Positions 19,414 through 27,108 of a DNA stretch of 38,620 bases are shown piece after piece. How positions within the stretch are numbered: the stretch's first letter is position 1; the number at the start of each line of letters is the position of its first letter. Source of the stretch: Bacteroidaceae bacterium (lineage in GTDB: Bacteria > Bacteroidota > Bacteroidia > Bacteroidales > Bacteroidaceae). Location: assembly GCA_024398665.1 (NCBI GenBank), contig JAKSIS010000020.1:1-38620 (forward strand), in the 5' to 3' direction. The notes under the pieces were generated by a model. It made no database searches, was not told the origin of the DNA, and worked only from the letters and a program-made list of their open reading frames with translations. The translations under genes were made by a program, and so were the position numbers.

Positions 19414-20225
19414 AAGTATCTGTCATAGCCCCCGTTTACAACACAGGTCCGAGAATCACCGCCTTTCTTGACTCCATGCAGTCCCAGACACTTGACGACA
19501 TGGAAATCATACTTGTCGATGACCACGGTCAGGATGACAGCATGGCCGTAGCCAGGGAATATGTCAATGCGCACCCCTCCGACAAACGGTTCGTATTCGC
19601 CGACAGCGGTCGCAATTTGGGACCGGGTGGAGCTAGAAATTACGGTCTTGCATTGGCAGCCGGGCAATACATTGCCTTTGTAGACAGTGATGACACAATT
19701 GAACCTGACTGCTGCCGCCAGCTGTACGAAACAGCCGTAAGTGAAGATGCCGATCTGTGTTTCGGATACATTTCGCTTGATTATCCTGACGGCCACAGCC
19801 GGATTAAAAAGAATCCCGCTGTCAGAAACGGTGCTTTTGGCACGGCAGAGAAGAAACGTTACCTGAGACGTTATGAAACGCTGTTCACCACCTATCTTTA
19901 CAAAAGACAGATGATATCCGACTGTGAAATTAGTTTCCCCAATACACGCAGTGCTGAAGACAGCTGTTTTCTGGCATGCAGCATCATTTCTTCACAGCGT
20001 ATTGCAAGCGTGGAAAAAGTATTCTACCGATACCATATAAGCAGTCAGTCAGTCAGTCAGAAGAAAGACATCGGACGCTGGAAGGAACGAATCGCTTCGT
20101 TGCGCATGATACGTCAGTTTGTCAAAGAAAAGAATCTGTACGGACAGTATTTTCTTATTGTCAACTGGCTGATATTCAAAAAAGGATGGATGCTGGCAAT
20201 CAGAGACCTTATCAGAAACCTATGA
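19410..20225 (+). CDS. Glycosyltransferase family 2 protein with CAGT repeat
   Basis: A 271-residue GT2 enzyme with VSVIAPVYNTGPRITAFLDSM, IILVDDHGQDDS, GPGGARNYGLALAAGQYIAFVDSDDTIEPD (DxD), and an AEDSCFLACSII acidic motif near 170. A tetranucleotide tract of 4.75 CAGT units (20042-20060) encodes SQSVSQ near residues 211-217. Gain or loss of a unit would shift the frame there. Upstream and downstream genes overlap by 4 nt. Confidence 0.9.
   Translation: MKVSVIAPVYNTGPRITAFLDSMQSQTLDDMEIILVDDHGQDDSMAVAREYVNAHPSDKRFVFADSGRNLGPGGARNYGLALAAGQYIAFVDSDDTIEPDCCRQLYETAVSEDADLCFGYISLDYPDGHSRIKKNPAVRNGAFGTAEKKRYLRRYETLFTTYLYKRQMISDCEISFPNTRSAEDSCFLACSIISSQRIASVEKVFYRYHISSQSVSQKKDIGRWKERIASLRMIRQFVKEKNLYGQYFLIVNWLIFKKGWMLAIRDLIRNL
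20042..20060. repeat. CAGT tetranucleotide tract inside a glycosyltransferase gene
   Basis: CAGT repeated four times plus CAG. The tract is short, but it is in coding sequence of a surface-glycan gene and its unit is not a multiple of 3. Confidence 0.85.
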
Positions 20226-21076
20226 ATGAAAGGATAAAGATTTTCACCCGTTCGTTTGACCTCAGACTGTACCGCAATTCACGCGGTCTGTATGAGAATC
20301 TGGGCATTCCCGTGGTACGCCTTACCGACCAGTCGGCCGACGGCTATTTCCATACAATGCTGAAGGACACTGAATGTGACATAGCCATAAACATTGACGA
20401 AGACGCATTCCTTGTTGACCCCGATGCCATGAAGGCTCTGGTTGAGACTGTGATTGAAGGCGGGTACGCCAATGCCGGCTGCCCTGACGGCGGCGGATTC
20501 TGCCCACGCGCCGGCAACCCCATTGTCACCAACCCCTTCTTCAACGTTTTCAACCTGAAACTTATACGCACAAAGTTCAGCAGGGAAGCCGTGAGGGAAT
20601 TCAGCTATCCGGAAAACAAGGATTCCATGATTGCCGCTTTCCCAAAAGAGCGTCTTGAAACAGGCTATACCTTTGACCGTTACGAATACGAACCATATTA
20701 CCAGTTTTTCCTGTGGATGGCCTTCAACTTCAAGACACTTTACCTGCCGTCAGCCAGGCACAAGGACGGGACATCGACAATACTGCTTTCCCCTGAAGGC
20801 CGGCCCATATGCATGCACTCATGGTTCGCGCGCTTCTACACCACCCCATCATGGGCCGTCAGGTTCTTTGAACCCGAACGCGGCATGCAGAAATCGCGTA
20901 TTGACTCTCTGATTGATGAGTCTTATGCCATACGCGGTCTTGCCAGACCGGAGTTCAATTTCGCAGACAGTCTTGCCTTCTTCTGGAACAAGGTAGTCCG
21001 ATGGACAATAAAGGTGCCCCAGCGCATTTCACGCTGGCCCTACAAGCTGAAGAGAAAACTCAGGGCTCAGTCCTGA
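20222..21076 (+). CDS. Putative glycosyltransferase-like protein of the glycan locus
   Basis: A 284-residue protein without a clear family assignment. The segment CDIAINIDEDAFLVDPDAM near residues 55-72 looks like a DxD metal site of a GT-A fold, and an HSWFARFY segment follows at about 200-207. The Arg/Lys-rich C-terminus (about 255-284) suggests peripheral membrane contact. ATG 20222 overlaps the preceding stop (ATGA). The frame is open back to 19976, but that part lies inside the previous gene. The last 10 nt overlap the tail of the convergent minus-strand gene. Confidence 0.7.
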   Translation: MNERIKIFTRSFDLRLYRNSRGLYENLGIPVVRLTDQSADGYFHTMLKDTECDIAINIDEDAFLVDPDAMKALVETVIEGGYANAGCPDGGGFCPRAGNPIVTNPFFNVFNLKLIRTKFSREAVREFSYPENKDSMIAAFPKERLETGYTFDRYEYEPYYQFFLWMAFNFKTLYLPSARHKDGTSTILLSPEGRPICMHSWFARFYTTPSWAVRFFEPERGMQKSRIDSLIDESYAIRGLARPEFNFADSLAFFWNKVVRWTIKVPQRISRWPYKLKRKLRAQS

Positions 21077-21654
21077 GCGGTAAAGGTCAGGTCTATGAGT
21101 GAAAGGAATTCCTGATAGGCCTTGTATCCGGCCAGGTCGCTGAGCGCGCCTGCCAGACCGCGGTAATGCCATTCGTGGTCAGCCTTTCCGCCGGGTGCAT
21201 GGAAACGTTCCCACAGCCTGTCACCAATTTCGCACCAGTCACGGTATATGGCGCGCATGTTGGACAGCTTGTCACCCATGGCAACAATCTTGGAATCCAT
21301 AGTGGCATGGGTAAGACGGTCAATGGCCTGCTGCTTGCGTTCACGCCAGCTGTCGGTCTCGCTCACTCCGGCAGTGAACCGGTCACTCTCCGAATCGACT
21401 ATGGCGGCTATGCGGTCACCGAATTCGGCACGTATCTGCTGCACTGTCACATCGGTATCCTCGACCGTGTCATGCAGAGCGGCTGCGGCCAGAAGTTCCT
21501 GGTCAGGAGTCATGGTTGACACTATTTCAACCGCCTCCATGGGATGCACTATGTATGGAAAGCCCTTACCGCGACGTTCGGTATTGGCATGTGCCTTGAC
21601 AGCGAATATTATAGCCCTGTCAAGCAGTGTGGTATCTATGTACTTGTTTGCCAT
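21067..21654 (-). CDS. HD-domain (p)ppGpp hydrolase-like protein (MESH1/RelA-SpoT hydrolase type)
   Basis: A 195-residue single-domain protein matching the hydrolase half of RelA/SpoT: GKGFPYIVHP with His37, ALHDTVEDT with His61-Asp62 and Glu65-Asp66, and KIVAMGDKLSNMR with Asp128 and Asn132. These are the Mn-binding and nucleotide-binding residues of small alarmone hydrolases, which remove pyrophosphate from (p)ppGpp. Length is close to stand-alone enzymes such as MESH1. It starts 1 nt after the stop of the (p)ppGpp synthetase gene, so the pair splits the two activities of a bifunctional Rel. Other nucleotide pyrophosphates are possible substrates. Confidence 0.85.
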   Translation of the reverse strand: MANKYIDTTLLDRAIIFAVKAHANTERRGKGFPYIVHPMEAVEIVSTMTPDQELLAAAALHDTVEDTDVTVQQIRAEFGDRIAAIVDSESDRFTAGVSETDSWRERKQQAIDRLTHATMDSKIVAMGDKLSNMRAIYRDWCEIGDRLWERFHAPGGKADHEWHYRGLAGALSDLAGYKAYQEFLSLIDLTFTAQD

Positions 21655-21655
21655 G

Positions 21656-22774
21656 TCATTTGTTCATAAAAGGCAGGCGTGCGGTCTTTTCGACCAGACG
21701 CTCCGCACGGGTTTCATTATATGCCGACGGTCCGTTCAGTTCGTCAAAGAATGCCTTAAGACCTTCCTTTCCGTCTCCTTTCTTGAGAATATGCACAATG
21801 CACAGGTCCTGAACCGAAACGGTCGATGAAATTATGTCCAGATCCGTTCCGCCTATTTCAAGCGTAGCCAGAAGGAATGCGTCGTCACTGGATTCCTTCT
21901 TGAGCCTTTCAATGTCGCCAAGTGTCTTGAAACCCAGGAACTTGAACATTCTGAGATAAGGCATTAGCGAATCCATGTGTATTTCAGCCTGGTTGATTGC
22001 CGCAATGCGTTTTGCCAGTTTGTCAAAGGGTTTCAGGTTCAGATAACTGCGGAAAGTGTCAACGTCAAGTGCCACTTCATCAAAGTTGCCGTCCGCCACA
22101 AGATTCTGCACCATGCGGCGGTATTTGTTGACCTGGGTGCGTATGCGGCTGAATTCGTCATCGGCAAGTTCAAGCACACCGGCCAGACGGTTCATGTTGC
22201 GCAGGTGTTCCACCGGTATCTCCACATCACCCTTGTACCCGCAGTCATGGTTCATGTTGGCCCACATGTGCTGCAGCGTGGTACGCAGCTGGAGTTCCCA
22301 CCTGAATTCATTGATTTCAGGGTGCTGGGGATCATAATACATGGACTTGGGTATGCGGCATATGTAATGCAGCGACATGTAACCGAAACTGTCCAGATCA
22401 TGCATCTTGCGCTTGTCAACGGAATTCTCCCAGTCTATGTCGAAACAGTTTTCGGCAATTGCGGCAAGCTTGTCAACGTCATCGGTGTAGAAGGTTATGA
22501 CACGTGTCCCCACAATGTCCGTTATGTCACTCAGGCAACGGTATTTGTAGCCTTTCAGTTCCAGCTTGCCGGCCAGGCTCTTCTCCTCCTTGACACGGCC
22601 CTCGACCGCAGTCACGAACATACCGTTCTGACGCAGGGCATCCTTCAGGCATTGTATTGCCAGTTCCATTATTCTGACGAATGACTGCCTGTTTGCACGA
22701 TACTCCTCAAGTATCATGGTGCAATGCATGTCAAGTCCGTACTTTTCAAGACTGTCCTCTTCCATATGGCTCAT
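21656..22774 (-). CDS. RelA/SpoT-domain (p)ppGpp synthetase
   Basis: The 372-residue protein has a RelA/SpoT nucleotidyltransferase domain at about 20-200. The core is complete: R60-K62-S66-K70 (RVKEEKSLAGK), DIVGTR with Asp86 and Arg91, GYMSLH, ELQLRT with Glu160, and GYK near 179-181. There is no HD, TGS or ACT domain, so it is not ribosome-type RelA. A further 170-residue C-terminal part, mainly helical, is unlike short SAS proteins and may be a control domain. It overlaps the tyrosine phosphatase start by 4 nt and precedes the matching hydrolase. Confidence 0.88.
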   Translation of the reverse strand: MSHMEEDSLEKYGLDMHCTMILEEYRANRQSFVRIMELAIQCLKDALRQNGMFVTAVEGRVKEEKSLAGKLELKGYKYRCLSDITDIVGTRVITFYTDDVDKLAAIAENCFDIDWENSVDKRKMHDLDSFGYMSLHYICRIPKSMYYDPQHPEINEFRWELQLRTTLQHMWANMNHDCGYKGDVEIPVEHLRNMNRLAGVLELADDEFSRIRTQVNKYRRMVQNLVADGNFDEVALDVDTFRSYLNLKPFDKLAKRIAAINQAEIHMDSLMPYLRMFKFLGFKTLGDIERLKKESSDDAFLLATLEIGGTDLDIISSTVSVQDLCIVHILKKGDGKEGLKAFFDELNGPSAYNETRAERLVEKTARLPFMNK

Positions 22775-23559
22775 ATAAGATAACGTTCACGCAGTACCCT
22801 TACATCGGATTCGCTTACGCCAAGACACTCATGCAGAAAATTGTCCATTGTTCCGTAGCGTTCACATACGGCGTTTATACCAAGTTTGAAATAGTCCACG
22901 TTGGCGCCCACGAAAGTGCGTATCACATTGCGGACTTCAGGGTCAGTGACATTCCAGCGCCTGCAGTACTCCCTGACCTTGACTGAATACTGCCAGTTGG
23001 ACAGGTCATAGTCAGCGACAATGGTGTTCACGTCACAGCCCAGCGCGGCAAGCACATACGCCGCACCCATACCCGTACGGTCCTTGCCCTGCGAACAGTG
23101 CCACAGTATTGCGCCCTCCTCCTGTTCAATGACAAGACGCATGAAACGGCGGTAATTGGCAATCGAATCAGGATCAAGCGCAAGGCCGATGTACATGCTG
23201 CGGGCGAACTTCTGCACCTGAGGCCTGTCAGCGAACTTTATGAGCAGGTCCATGGGATCTCCGTCAACGCCCTGACTGAAAATCTCCTTCCACACGTCGC
23301 CGTTGGAATCGATTAGCGGCAGATGATGGTAAACGGCCCCCGGAACCATACGGTCCGGCGCCATGCCAAGTTCATAATCGGACCTGAAATCAACTACTGT
23401 CCTGACCTTGTAGGTGTCAGACAGCAGTTCAAGATCCTGGTCCGATGCCGATATCAGCGCTCCGCAGCGCAGCAGGACACCTGAACGGATTACACGCCCG
23501 TCAGTGTTCTTCAGACCTCCAAGACACCTGAAATTGCCGATTCTTTCCGGTTCTTTCAT
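22771..23559 (-). CDS. Tyrosine-protein phosphatase (Y_phosphatase3, MptpB-like)
   Basis: A 262-residue cysteine phosphatase. The P-loop is HCSQGKDRTG with Cys155 and Arg161 (CX5R), and the N-terminus has the LGGLKNTDGRVIRSGVLLRCG segment usual for Y_phosphatase3. This group accepts phosphotyrosine, phosphoserine or phosphoinositides; the substrate is unknown. There is no signal peptide, so it is likely cytosolic. It lies between the STAS protein and the (p)ppGpp synthetase in one operon, which suggests a signalling task rather than capsule control. Confidence 0.88.
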   Translation of the reverse strand: MKEPERIGNFRCLGGLKNTDGRVIRSGVLLRCGALISASDQDLELLSDTYKVRTVVDFRSDYELGMAPDRMVPGAVYHHLPLIDSNGDVWKEIFSQGVDGDPMDLLIKFADRPQVQKFARSMYIGLALDPDSIANYRRFMRLVIEQEEGAILWHCSQGKDRTGMGAAYVLAALGCDVNTIVADYDLSNWQYSVKVREYCRRWNVTDPEVRNVIRTFVGANVDYFKLGINAVCERYGTMDNFLHECLGVSESDVRVLRERYLI

Positions 23560-23566
23560 GAATGCG

Positions 23567-23869
23567 TCAGATAATGCGGATGATGTTCGAGAAACCGGTT
23601 ATGTCAAAGACTTCCTTAACCTGGGGCTTCATGCCCGTCATTGTCATTCTGCCTCCACGTGCATTCACGCTTTTCTGGAGCATGAGGAACATGCGCAGGC
23701 CCTGGCTTGATGTGTATTCCATATCAGTGCAGTCCAAAGTGATTTCGGGCTGGTCGCCTTCCATAAGGGGCTGTATGTCCTTCTGGAACTGGTCTGCATT
23801 GGTCGTGTCGAGACGGCCCTGAAGCACTACATTGAAACGGTTCTCTTCTCTGTTGATTGTAACGTTCAT
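23567..23869 (-). CDS. STAS-domain anti-sigma factor antagonist-like protein
   Basis: A 100-residue stand-alone STAS protein of the SpoIIAA/RsbV type. The signature MEYTSSQGLRMFL contains Ser54/Ser55 at the usual phosphorylation site. In partner switching the anti-sigma kinase phosphorylates this serine, and a PP2C phosphatase removes the phosphate so the STAS protein can bind the kinase. Both partners are encoded in this operon. It lies 4 nt after the phosphatase gene. Confidence 0.93.
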   Translation of the reverse strand: MNVTINREENRFNVVLQGRLDTTNADQFQKDIQPLMEGDQPEITLDCTDMEYTSSQGLRMFLMLQKSVNARGGRMTMTGMKPQVKEVFDITGFSNIIRII

Positions 23870-23873
23870 ATTG

Positions 23874-25769
23874 TCAAAAATTTATAATCATTATGGTAAT
23901 GTCATCATTCTGTTCGTTCCCGCCTGTGAACGTGCGGACGCTGGCCATAAGGTCCTCAGCTGCATCGCGGGCCGATGTGATTCCTGCGGCCTTTCCGGCC
24001 CAGTCAAGAAGAGCCGCATCGCCGTACTGAGACTTTTCGGCAGTTTCAGCCTCGGTCACACCGTCCGTATAGAGCACCAGACGGCTGCCACGGGCCAGTT
24101 CAAGCTGCTGCTTCCTGAACGGGAAGCCCTCAAAGAGTCCAATGGCCAGGTTGGGTGTTTCATCAAGGAACGACGGACTGCCGTCAGGTGTCACCACCAC
24201 TATGCGGTTATGGCCTCCGTTGCAGTATTCCACATGGCCTGTGGCCAGATCCAGACAGCCTGTGAACATGGTCACGAACATGCCGCTGTCATTGCCGTCC
24301 GATACGGAATCGTTTATCTTGGAAAGGACTTCATCCATTGGAAGCCCCAGACCGGCAATGAAACGGAAAGCGCTTCGGGTTATGGCCATGAACATTGAAG
24401 CCGGCACTCCCTTTCCGGAAACGTCACCTACGGCAAAATACAGCTTGCCGTCCTTGATGAAGAAGTCATACAGGTCACCTCCAACTTCTCTGGCAGGCTG
24501 CATCATGGCATAAATGTCAAGATCATCACGTTTGGGGAAAGTGTGGGGAACCATATGCATCTGGATTGAACGGGCAATGTTCAGTTCGCTTTCAAAACGC
24601 TGTTTTTCCGATGTGGTGGTCTTCAGTTCCTGAATGTACTCGTTCAGTGATTTCTGCATGTATTCGAACGAACTGCGCAGTTTGCCTATCTCATCGTCAT
24701 ATCTGTAGTTGGGCAGGCGGGTGTTGAAATTGCCCTGCGCAATGTTCTTTGCGGCATGGCTGAATTCCACCAGCGGACTTGTAAGCTTACGGATTGTGAA
24801 ATAGCAGAGCAGGAACAGTATGAAAAGTCCGATGGCAGCTATCAGGATCAGGATCAGGTGCATCTTGCTGGTACGTTCCAGAACTTCCTTATACTGGCAT
24901 GTTATTGCACTTGACCAGCCGTTGTCCAGAGGACCGTATACCGCGAATGACAGTTTGCCGTCATCCATGAACCGTTTCATGCCTTTCTCCCCGTGCACCA
25001 TGCACCGGCCTATTTCAGCAAGTTCATCATTGCCCATCTGGAGTGCAGCCGAATATATGGAATTGCCTTTGAGGGCATCCATGTTCTCAAGTGCCAGGAA
25101 CTGGCCGTTGCGTCCAATCAGGAACATGTGCGAATTGCCGTACGGCTTTATCTGAGACACCGTTTCAGACAGCCAGTCAATATTGAGGTCTGCGGTAACG
25201 ACAGCCAGAAGACTGTCATCAGCGTCATAGACAGGAACACTGTATGTGGTCATGAACTGCTGGCCTCCACCCTCATCGAAATACGGTTCGCTCCAATACG
25301 GTTTTTTCAGCAGGGATGGGATAAGATACCAGTCCATGAAGAAATAGTCATACGAATCATTGCCCAACTGCATTGTCAGAACAGCTTCCGTGTCCGCATC
25401 ACGGTACGAATACGGGGAAAAGAAATGTTCCCCTTCATGGAAACCGTCACGGAAAGCAATGGCGCAACCCGATATGTCAGCATTCTCACGCACCATACGT
25501 TCGGTAAGGTGATACAGGGCCTGATCGTCGTCAAGATTGTCCTTGATGACCCATGAAAGGTTACGCACAGAACTCTCAATGTCCTGAAGCTTGCGCTGGA
25601 CCTCATTGTTGACAGCGTCCAGCATGTTGGTGGCTGACCTGGTCGCTTCCTCGGCAATAAGCTTGTGCGATGACACCGCAGCAATGAATATTGAAATCAG
25701 GAACAGCAGTGACGTGAACAGAAGCACGAACATGCTGAGTCTCTTGGAGAATGATTTCGATGATGTCAT
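23874..25769 (-). CDS. Membrane sensor phosphatase: dCache - HAMP - PP2C (SpoIIE/RsbU type)
   Basis: A 631-residue receptor phosphatase. A helix at about 11-33 is followed by a periplasmic region (35-300) of double-Cache type (YWSEPYFDEGGGQQFMTTY and PVYDADDSLLAVVTADL). A second helix lies at about 305-330, then a HAMP domain (FTIRKLTSPLVEFSHAAK), a short coiled coil and a PP2C_SIG domain from about 400. Catalytic motifs are present: REVGGDLYDF, GDVSGKGVPASMFM, LVLYTDGVTEA and QNDDITIM, giving the metal-binding aspartates. It probably dephosphorylates the STAS protein in response to a periplasmic ligand. Its start overlaps the binding-protein stop by 4 nt. Confidence 0.93.
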   Translation of the reverse strand: MTSSKSFSKRLSMFVLLFTSLLFLISIFIAAVSSHKLIAEEATRSATNMLDAVNNEVQRKLQDIESSVRNLSWVIKDNLDDDQALYHLTERMVRENADISGCAIAFRDGFHEGEHFFSPYSYRDADTEAVLTMQLGNDSYDYFFMDWYLIPSLLKKPYWSEPYFDEGGGQQFMTTYSVPVYDADDSLLAVVTADLNIDWLSETVSQIKPYGNSHMFLIGRNGQFLALENMDALKGNSIYSAALQMGNDELAEIGRCMVHGEKGMKRFMDDGKLSFAVYGPLDNGWSSAITCQYKEVLERTSKMHLILILIAAIGLFILFLLCYFTIRKLTSPLVEFSHAAKNIAQGNFNTRLPNYRYDDEIGKLRSSFEYMQKSLNEYIQELKTTTSEKQRFESELNIARSIQMHMVPHTFPKRDDLDIYAMMQPAREVGGDLYDFFIKDGKLYFAVGDVSGKGVPASMFMAITRSAFRFIAGLGLPMDEVLSKINDSVSDGNDSGMFVTMFTGCLDLATGHVEYCNGGHNRIVVVTPDGSPSFLDETPNLAIGLFEGFPFRKQQLELARGSRLVLYTDGVTEAETAEKSQYGDAALLDWAGKAAGITSARDAAEDLMASVRTFTGGNEQNDDITIMIINF

Positions 25770-26713
25770 TTCACAAAGTCTTTATATTCAACTGAATTCT
25801 GTATGGCACCCTTGTCAAGCATCCCGGCAACAATGGCCTTGAAACCTTCCTGGGATACCGGTGCGTAGTCAGGCTTACCTGTACGCGGATTGACCTGAAG
25901 GCTGAGATATTCCTCAAGCATGCGCCTTTCCTGGGTATGGTTTGTGACTATGTTGTTCTCCATCATGTATTTCCATGATATTTCAAGCGCTTCATCAATG
26001 TGCTCACGCGCGTAATCCCAGCCGCGCCTGCTGGCACGGACAAACTTTTCAACCGTTTCCCTGTTGGCCTTGTAATACTGTTCGGTGACATAAAGGCCGT
26101 CCTCGGGTATATTCAGAGTGGGATAGTCGCTGAATCTGATTATGTTTTCCTCAGGTATTCCTCCCATGGCCAGATCCAGCTGCAGCAGTTCGCTGTAACT
26201 GTAACACAGCGAAGCGTCAACAGCGCCGGAAACATACAGGTTGACAAGGCTGAAGCAGGGTTGCCAGTCAATGTTTACGTTCTCCATCTTTTCCAGCATT
26301 TCGCATATTTCAGCATATCCTATAAGCCACTTGCATACCCTCTTTCCGTCCAGGTCCTTGAACGAAGCGACCGGTCCGCGGCCCACGCAGCACAGACCGT
26401 TCTTATGTGTCAGCTGCATGACATTGACAATGCGGTCACCACCGCTGCGGTGCTGTATGGACTGGAAAAGCTGCTGGCCCACAATCTGCGCACCGCCTGA
26501 CAGGAGTATGTCCATAGGCGTCTCATTGGAATTGGCTGTGACATGACGGATCACCACGTCAATCCCCTCATCGGAATAGAACCCCTTTTCCTTTGCCACA
26601 TAAAAGCCCGCGAACTGTGACTGAGGCGTCCACTGGGGGACAAAAGTCAGTTTCTGCGCGCTGGCCAGAGCGGTATGAAGGACTAGTGCCGTGAACAGGA
26701 CTCTCAGTTTCAT
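25766..26713 (-). CDS. NMT1/THI5-like periplasmic binding protein
   Basis: A 315-residue protein with a signal peptide (MKLRVLFTALVLHTALASAQ) and an NMT1/THI5-type fold: FVPQWTPQSQFAGFYVAKEKGFYSDEGIDV and SGGAQIVGQQLFQSI. The family binds thiamine-pyrimidine precursors, sulfonates, nitrate or related ligands. No ABC permease or ATPase is nearby, and it is locked between the kinase and sensor phosphatase genes by two 4-nt overlaps. It may therefore present a ligand to the dCache domain rather than feed a transporter. ATG 26713 is chosen over the longer frame from 26791 because it yields the signal peptide and the ATGA overlap. Confidence 0.88.
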   Translation of the reverse strand: MKLRVLFTALVLHTALASAQKLTFVPQWTPQSQFAGFYVAKEKGFYSDEGIDVVIRHVTANSNETPMDILLSGGAQIVGQQLFQSIQHRSGGDRIVNVMQLTHKNGLCCVGRGPVASFKDLDGKRVCKWLIGYAEICEMLEKMENVNIDWQPCFSLVNLYVSGAVDASLCYSYSELLQLDLAMGGIPEENIIRFSDYPTLNIPEDGLYVTEQYYKANRETVEKFVRASRRGWDYAREHIDEALEISWKYMMENNIVTNHTQERRMLEEYLSLQVNPRTGKPDYAPVSQEGFKAIVAGMLDKGAIQNSVEYKDFVK

Positions 26714-27108
26714 GACACTTTCTTTATCATTGTCAGCATGTTGTTGCCGTCCCGGTATTCGTATTCCATCCTGTCCATGAGCTGCTTGCACAGGAAAATG
26801 CCCAGACCGCCCACTTCACGCTTCTCAGCAGAGAGGGTGATATCGGGATCAGCCTTCTCCAGCGGATTGAAAGGCACGCCCGAATCACGGAATGTGATAT
26901 AAAGACTGTCACCCTTCAGTTCAGTTCCTACTTCAATGTATCCGTCACCTTCCTTATAGGCATAATTCACGATATTCTCAACAACTTCTTCAATGCAGAG
27001 CCTCAATTTGAACTGGAGAGCAGGGTCGTCAACCATGTCACTGGAAGACATGAGCGTCTCAATGATTTCGGCGGATTTTCCTGCTATGGGGTCAATCAGA
27101 ACTTTCAC
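26710..27108 (-). CDS. RsbW/SpoIIAB-like anti-sigma factor serine kinase
   Basis: A 132-residue GHKL ATPase. The N box is LCIEEVVENIVNYAY (Glu40, Asn45), the G1 box is DSGVPFNP and the G2 box is GGLGIFLCKQLMD. Such kinases phosphorylate a STAS antagonist and sequester a sigma factor or other target when not bound by it. It is the first gene of the operon. No sigma factor gene is visible in the window, so the target is unknown. Confidence 0.92.
   Translation of the reverse strand: MKVLIDPIAGKSAEIIETLMSSSDMVDDPALQFKLRLCIEEVVENIVNYAYKEGDGYIEVGTELKGDSLYITFRDSGVPFNPLEKADPDITLSAEKREVGGLGIFLCKQLMDRMEYEYRDGNNMLTMIKKVS

Follow-up and report, generated by a model that had tools for sequence, protein, structure and literature searches.

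What does a bacterial partner switch control when no sigma factor accompanies it? The question is raised by a 38,620-nucleotide stretch of DNA from a Bacteroidaceae bacterium (assembly GCA_024398665.1, contig JAKSIS010000020.1, positions 1 to 38,620; hereafter the window). Here, genes for an RsbW-like kinase (KIN), a STAS-domain antagonist (STAS) and an RsbU-like phosphatase (PP2C) share one operon with genes for a putative (p)ppGpp synthetase (SYN) and an HD-type hydrolase (HD). Control of small alarmone synthetases is mostly ascribed to transcription or to nucleotides. We consider it likely that the cassette is a sigma-free partner switch with alarmone synthesis as its output. As judged from the sequences, this interpretation has strong support from genome context, namely the gene set, the intact residues, the re-formed linkage, the co-occurrence pattern and the lack of a SigB/SigF-like factor in the genome as sequenced.

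Architecture of the operon

The operon comprises seven open reading frames, all on the minus strand and running from 27108 to 21067, with every junction being an overlap or a gap of at most 7 nt. The first gene (26710..27108) has a GTG start and encodes KIN, a 132-residue RsbW/SpoIIAB-like serine kinase (HATPase_c_2, 1.8e-21). By the frame coordinates it shares a 4-nt ATGA overlap with the gene for an NMT1/THI5-like binding protein (NMT, 25766..26713; NMT1, 3e-31), for which we took position 26713 within this overlap, and not an upstream GTG, as the start; by eye, the protein begins like a signal peptide. Another 4-nt overlap leads to PP2C (23874..25769), a 631-residue, RsbU-like membrane phosphatase of dCache-HAMP-SpoIIE architecture (SpoIIE, 2.6e-51; MCP-like_PDC_1, 1.4e-28; HAMP, 1.8e-11), and a 4-nt gap separates PP2C from STAS (23567..23869), a 100-residue RsbV/SpoIIAA-like antagonist (STAS, 9.2e-18; TIGR00377, 1.4e-21). 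After 7 nt follows a phosphatase of the Y_phosphatase3 family with an HCSQGKDR loop (PTP, 22771..23559; PF13350, 8.1e-54), which overlaps SYN by 4 nt. SYN (21656..22774; RelA_SpoT, 3.6e-15) is a small alarmone synthetase of 372 residues and lies 1 nt from the small alarmone hydrolase HD (21067..21654; HD_4, 1.7e-19). Coordinates and domain matches together confirm the seven tightly packed minus-strand genes of a preliminary description of this DNA. It had called the synthetase RelA-type; SYN is a small enzyme, nearest to RelP/RelQ, and not a full-length RelA.

Switch and alarmone proteins

In KIN, the N, G1 and G2 box residues E40, E41, N45, D75, G77, G100, G101, L102 and G103 are invariant in 76/76 SYN-linked copies. 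STAS carries both Ser54 and Ser55 in 82/82 SYN-linked copies; we take Ser55 to be the likely phospho-acceptor, from alignment with the RsbV motif. The five motif aspartates of the PP2C metal site are invariant in 62/62 copies. The cassette has the kinase boxes, the acceptor serine and the PP2C aspartates of an RsbUVW module; no cognate sigma factor was found for it among the Sigma70_r3 proteins of the 84% complete genome. The NMT gene lies directly 5' of PP2C in 21/21 loci that contain it, SYN-linked or not. Such a position would be expected if the binding protein signals to the phosphatase, and the NMT1-type protein probably presents the ligand to the PP2C sensor. PTP and an APH-type kinase found in many related cassettes are taken to be accessories.

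The synthetase domain of SYN occupies approximately the first 215 residues, with the RelA_SpoT match confined to the first half of the protein, and is followed by an extra C-terminal stretch. We searched a SYN profile (47 relatives, 360 positions) against PDB sequences. Solved RelP/RelQ/YjbM-type chains were matched at 6e-21 to 1e-17 within profile positions 11-210, whereas chains 7ztb and 9erv, which we take to be CapRel, reached only 6e-5; all of these matches fall inside positions 11-215, weaker rows extending beyond them, and the comparison is one with solved chains. We then assigned 24 residues to the synthetase motifs known for RelP/RelQ and RelSeq. Twenty of them are invariant in 106/106 copies, including R60, K62, K70, D86, Y132, H136, E160, Q162, Y180 and K181; the others are H176 (105/106), R164 (103), T165 (89, otherwise Ser) and H125 (62). 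RelA_SpoT is the sole domain found, the ATP/GTP-site residues are kept and there is no TGS or ACT domain, as in other small alarmone synthetases. No Pfam family matched the C-terminal stretch of about 140 residues, and a search of the last 148 residues against PDB sequences returned nothing meaningful (two matches at E about 1).

HD has no domain besides HD_4, in which metal and catalytic residues are kept, as in small alarmone hydrolases; in other cassettes it is fused to APH. The HD and ED motifs are intact: residues H37, H61, D62, E65, D66, D128 and N132 are present in 81/81 copies and R28 in 76/81. Its solved relatives include MESH1, Rel chains and a small alarmone hydrolase. Since motif and metal-site residues are intact, both SYN and HD would be expected to be active.

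Linkage of the synthetase to switch genes

We compared the surroundings of SYN across genomes. The named loci are the 80 nearest the query among 563 confirmed SYN relatives in GTDB genomes and hence not a random sample; in 33/80 one flank is shorter than 6 kb, and the other 47 have full flanks of at least 6 kb each. STAS is found in 67 of the 80, HD in 62, KIN in 61, PP2C in 52, an APH-type kinase in 40, PTP in 15 and NMT in 8. With full flanks, at least one of KIN, STAS and PP2C is present in 42 of the 47 loci, all three in 32 and HD in 36. By open-frame bounds, STAS lies directly upstream of SYN in 37/80 named loci and HD directly downstream in 53/80. By domain bounds, in a wider set of 111 loci, 50/61 same-strand STAS genes within 2 kb end at most 150 nt from SYN. 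Around synthetases that share 50-86% identity with the window SYN, the gene set is found again. The named-locus records are metagenome-assembled genomes or uncultured isolates, many of them from the guts of horses and ruminants; a few carry labels of other phyla (Akkermansia, Fibrobacter, Firmicutes), which may reflect transfer or mis-binning.

In the window's genus, SYN is nearly core and single-copy (31/37 genomes). Among the 27 genus loci read (7 earlier and 20 further ones, leaving out G951, G1064, G1127 and G1131), 26 have KIN, STAS or PP2C beside SYN, the exception being G104. The 20 further loci hold KIN in 20, STAS in 19 and HD in 14 cases; six have no hydrolase in the sequenced stretch, one of these on a short contig. 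At the level of the family, a SYN match occurs in 20/151 genomes, one of them remote (G012). In the order it occurs in 11/393 genomes, two of them remote; ten of these matches were read, and 6/8 non-remote ones are linked to switch genes, the exceptions being L142 and L143. As a control, 12 remote synthetases from outside the order had no cassette genes nearby, three of these stretches being short. Chance linkage is ruled out by the genus and named-locus counts, by the eight core gene orders described below and by this control. The cassette is carried by many uncultured gut Bacteroidales, often but not always including the hydrolase.

Some synthetases occur in other settings. L231, L232, L233 and L044 hold small synthetases of a second family, with 26% identity to SYN. 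STAS-KIN lies directly upstream of the synthetase in L044 and a STAS gene 2.7 kb away in L232, and none is seen in L231 and L233; with STAS near in only two of four loci, we gave little weight to an independent recruitment of this type. In L142 and L143, SYN-HD directly follows ABC transporter genes (an ATPase, and a permease with SBP_bac_3; Pfam matches for L142 only) with no switch module, and the transporter is perhaps another input to SYN-HD. An 884-residue frame (L144:7085-9739) has a synthetase domain together with SLOG-like and RyR ones, and a TIR-domain protein is encoded nearby; the locus resembles a defence island whose effector would be of the alarmone type.

Gene order, fusions and phylogeny

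Of the 111 loci with any SYN-profile match, three are remote and two share the parts of a single split gene; some records are duplicates. KIN, STAS, PP2C and SYN occur together in 63 of the 111, in eight different orders of these four core genes, or 12 when the place of HD is counted; the commonest order, PP2C-KIN-STAS-SYN, accounts for 32/63. Fused open frames join HD to APH (23 cases), PP2C to KIN (21) and HD to SYN (one). The HD-SYN frame is in L037, the near-identical L039 having separate frames, and it may be a recent or an assembly event. The most frequent gene family nearby that is not part of the cassette is found at 16 of the loci. Cassettes of the window type and of the L032 type come from different species of one genus (g1), and their SYN proteins are about 58-60% and their STAS proteins about 36% identical, which suggests exchange of whole cassettes. 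The shuffled order and these two diverged types in one genus rule out a single frozen inherited operon.

We built a SYN tree from 106 sequences, with quick support values only. At least two switch genes are present at 74 of these loci, none within at least 5 kb on each side at 16, and another 16 are unclassable; loci with at least two switch genes are found on all main branches. A STAS tree of 82 SYN-linked and 18 not-linked rows (99 columns, several long branches) requires five changes of the SYN-linkage label, compared with 16.7 in shuffles, and 0/500 shuffles were as low. The label split is not clean, which weakens the idea of a separate subgroup of SYN-linked STAS proteins. Distance matrices correlate best for STAS-KIN (r 0.86) and SYN-PP2C (0.83), followed by KIN-PP2C (0.76), STAS-PP2C (0.73) and SYN-KIN (0.69). 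SYN-STAS (0.61) is not among the highest, and HD-PP2C (0.53) and SYN-HD (0.43) are lower. The correlations take no account of common descent, and we did not count them as support.

Phosphatase co-occurrence and sigma factors

Across the 151 family genomes, a SpoIIE phosphatase is found in 20/20 genomes with SYN and in 32/131 without (Fisher 3e-11, uncorrected for kinship). The window genome, which is 84% complete, contains one SpoIIE match, one free STAS and one stand-alone RsbW-type kinase, all of them in the operon; its other STAS domain sits in a 564-residue frame, and two weak HATPase_c_2 matches fall in frames of 1286 and 866 residues. The next HATPase_c_2 match is a 585-residue multi-pass membrane protein, MATE-like by eye, with a C-terminal RsbW-type HATPase (G000:C18; L147:115-1872), possibly a second kinase input to the operon's STAS. 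The genome also has two long RelA_SpoT open frames of 739 and 751 residues. Two genes flanking the operon look unrelated to it: a plus-strand frame (19976-21076) with no Pfam match converges on its 3' end, and a plus-strand DAGK/YegS-type gene diverges from its 5' end.

The absence of a sigma factor, as originally noted, holds for the operon. The window genome has one Sigma70_r3 protein of 286 residues, which by eye is RpoD-like, resembling the primary sigma factor of Bacteroidota. The genome as sequenced yielded no SigB/SigF-like factor, extracytoplasmic function (ECF) sigma factors not being searched. When the open frames of 131 loci were searched with RpoD, a query that would mostly miss ECF factors, there was one match, beside a remote synthetase in L145, and none in the switch loci. 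With the genome 84% complete and ECF factors outside the search, these results argue against a sigma output rather than exclude it.

Switch modules without a synthetase

We inspected 20 stretches around SpoIIE genes of the family. Twelve come from SYN-less genomes and eight from genomes in which SYN, or a remote SYN, lies at another place; 18/20 hold STAS. In L211, L213, L214, L218 and L225, a CitMHS transporter with TrkA-C lies beside STAS, mostly with PP2C and KIN, and SYN is missing. Such transporters are a possible second non-sigma output of partner switching in the family. At L216:5198-6400 and L217:3264-4478, STAS is fused to an APH-family kinase in a switch module without synthetase; these two fusions, together with the HD-APH fusions, hint that APH bridges switch and hydrolase. 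The modules of L222 and L223 adjoin alginate-export-like genes and very long frames (1690 and 1812 residues).

Possible alternative outputs of the switch

Several observations weigh against alarmone synthesis as the output. In the family, KIN, STAS or PP2C stands beside SYN in only 11/20 SYN genomes; of the nine unlinked matches, five have HD only and four are SYN alone, L028 among the latter lying at a contig end. A conserved alarmone-switch neighbourhood had been set as a test beforehand; it was largely borne out, in 42/47 named and 20/20 further genus loci and by the SpoIIE co-occurrence (20/20 against 32/131), with only the 11/20 family matches linked. The 16 lone SYN loci, eight of which lie in one clade of nine rows, correspond to nine changes on the SYN tree, and lone SYN proteins retain the C-terminal domain, which thus need not be a docking site. 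STAS proteins of five lone-SYN genomes (G014, G021, G063, G081, G141) are nearest to the SYN-linked STAS of L040, in a starred set of 7 that lies inside a larger starred one of 30 rows, 24 of them SYN-linked; this mixture fits either a recent loss of coupling or a STAS still serving a SYN encoded elsewhere. SYN is joined to STAS or KIN in one frame at none of the 111 loci, the hydrolase is not constant, and HD distances track those of STAS (r 0.24) and KIN (r 0.23) poorly. SYN-less modules neighbour CitMHS/TrkA-C transporters, a xanthine/uracil-type permease and alginate-export-like genes, and in the SYN cassettes L032 and L034 a Na_H_Exchanger-TrkA_C antiporter lies next to or between switch genes. 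With transporters beside such modules and an antiporter inside some cassettes, the switch may have other or several outputs, and SYN may not be the sole one. The proposal that the output is the (p)ppGpp level is partly supported, by linkage and co-occurrence, and qualified by the inconstant hydrolase and by the transporters.

It is conceivable, though rather unlikely in our view, that the switch governs another target, such as the TrkA-C antiporter, a carboxylate transporter or the APH kinase, with SYN-HD as co-operonic passengers or as a parallel branch under the same conditions. The five CitMHS-TrkA_C loci, the antiporter of L032 and L034 and the STAS-APH fusions of two genomes all speak for such a target. 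Against it, KIN, STAS and SYN, with PTP optional, are consecutive with no transporter between them in L056, L124, L127, L129 and L238-L241, although in L127 an ABC transporter gene lies upstream of the three, and STAS directly precedes SYN at nearly half of the named loci (37/80). SYN-HD could also be a toxin-antitoxin or defence pair like FaRel/ATfaRel that is gated by the switch. A synthetase beside a small hydrolase is indeed part of the faRel layout (PMC11782079), and the spread of SYN over family and order is patchy. Yet RelP/RelQ-type chains match SYN far better (6e-21) than 7ztb/9erv do (6e-5), and SYN is nearly core and single-copy in the genus and has no hydrolase beside it in 6/20 further genus loci, one on a short contig, so that we regard this pair as improbable. 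Least probable of all is a classic sigma switch, in which KIN would hold a remote ECF or RpoD factor and SYN-HD would belong to a general stress operon. KIN and STAS do belong to anti-sigma/anti-anti-sigma families, and both the unsearched ECF factors and the incomplete genome leave room for such a factor, but the only Sigma70_r3 protein found is RpoD-like and the RpoD query had no match in the switch loci.

Proposed mechanism

For a switch that acts on alarmone synthesis, we infer the phospho-cycle, the contact of SYN with STAS or KIN and its sign, the (p)ppGpp product and the ligand. The NMT1-type protein and the periplasmic dCache domain would respond to an extracellular ligand and determine how active PP2C is. 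KIN would phosphorylate STAS at Ser55, and PP2C would dephosphorylate it. Dephosphorylated STAS, or KIN captured by STAS, may then bind SYN, perhaps at the N-terminal helices or the extra C-terminal domain of SYN, and so raise or lower (p)ppGpp synthesis. HD would clear the product and reset the (p)ppGpp level. Within this model, we have a slight preference for activation of SYN by dephosphorylated STAS, by analogy with SiaC-SiaD; inhibition of SYN, by KIN or by STAS, is less favoured.

We lean towards the view that gut Bacteroidales have a family of stringent responses that do not depend on the ribosome. In these, an extracellular ligand, acting through a binding-protein/dCache phosphatase and a STAS phospho-switch, would directly set a dedicated (p)ppGpp synthetase, which would make this the first partner switch whose output is an alarmone. 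If true, such a dedicated protein switch, coupling (p)ppGpp to an external signal, would open another route into the stringent response, and it would suggest a role for the RsbW/STAS modules of those Bacteroidota that lack SigB-type sigma factors. The compact gene set makes the idea of an alarmone output directly testable.

Comparison with known systems

Full-text literature searches, with subscription papers and preprints outside their scope, returned no coupling of a partner switch to a ppGpp synthetase, and a full-text search combining partner-switching, Bacteroid*, SpoIIE and STAS found no literature. Among the matches listed, no related paper describes such a coupling in its title or the start of its abstract, and the terms ppGpp and alarmone are absent from a review of STAS-only proteins. 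A 2011 survey of RelA/SpoT homologs (RSHs) gives only the long RSHs Rel and RshB for the class Bacteroidia. These searches agree with the preliminary statement that no system of this composition had been described, which nevertheless did not name SiaABCD, a close working analogue. Partner switching as such is already known; what would be new here is the alarmone output.

The cassette shares its three switch families with RsbU/RsbV/RsbW and SpoIIE/SpoIIAA/SpoIIAB, with catalytic and acceptor residues intact. It differs from them in having alarmone genes in the place of the sigma factor, and no factor of the SigB/SigF kind was found in the genome. SYN and HD have the conserved synthetase and hydrolase domains of RelP/RelQ and of small alarmone hydrolases, respectively, while SYN adds some 140 C-terminal residues and both enzymes share one operon with a partner switch. 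In the toxSAS pair faRel/aTfaRel, too, a synthetase adjoins a small hydrolase (PMC11782079); in contrast to that pair, SYN is closer to RelP/RelQ, the hydrolase is missing from some cassettes and signalling genes are attached.

The closest working analogue is SiaABCD of Pseudomonas aeruginosa. There, a PP2C phosphatase and a kinase are reported to set the phosphorylation of a protein resembling anti-sigma antagonists, which binds and activates a diguanylate cyclase (PMC7647112, PMC8457831), and the antagonist SiaC is reported to bind the stalks of the SiaD cyclase, stabilising the active dimer (PMC8457831). A phospho-switched antagonist, a second-messenger synthase and the lack of a sigma output would be common to both systems, the contact between antagonist and synthase being a prediction in the cassette. 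SiaABCD uses a diguanylate cyclase, c-di-GMP and a threonine acceptor, whereas the cassette combines a RelA_SpoT synthetase, and often a hydrolase, with a PF13581 kinase and a PF01740 STAS protein.

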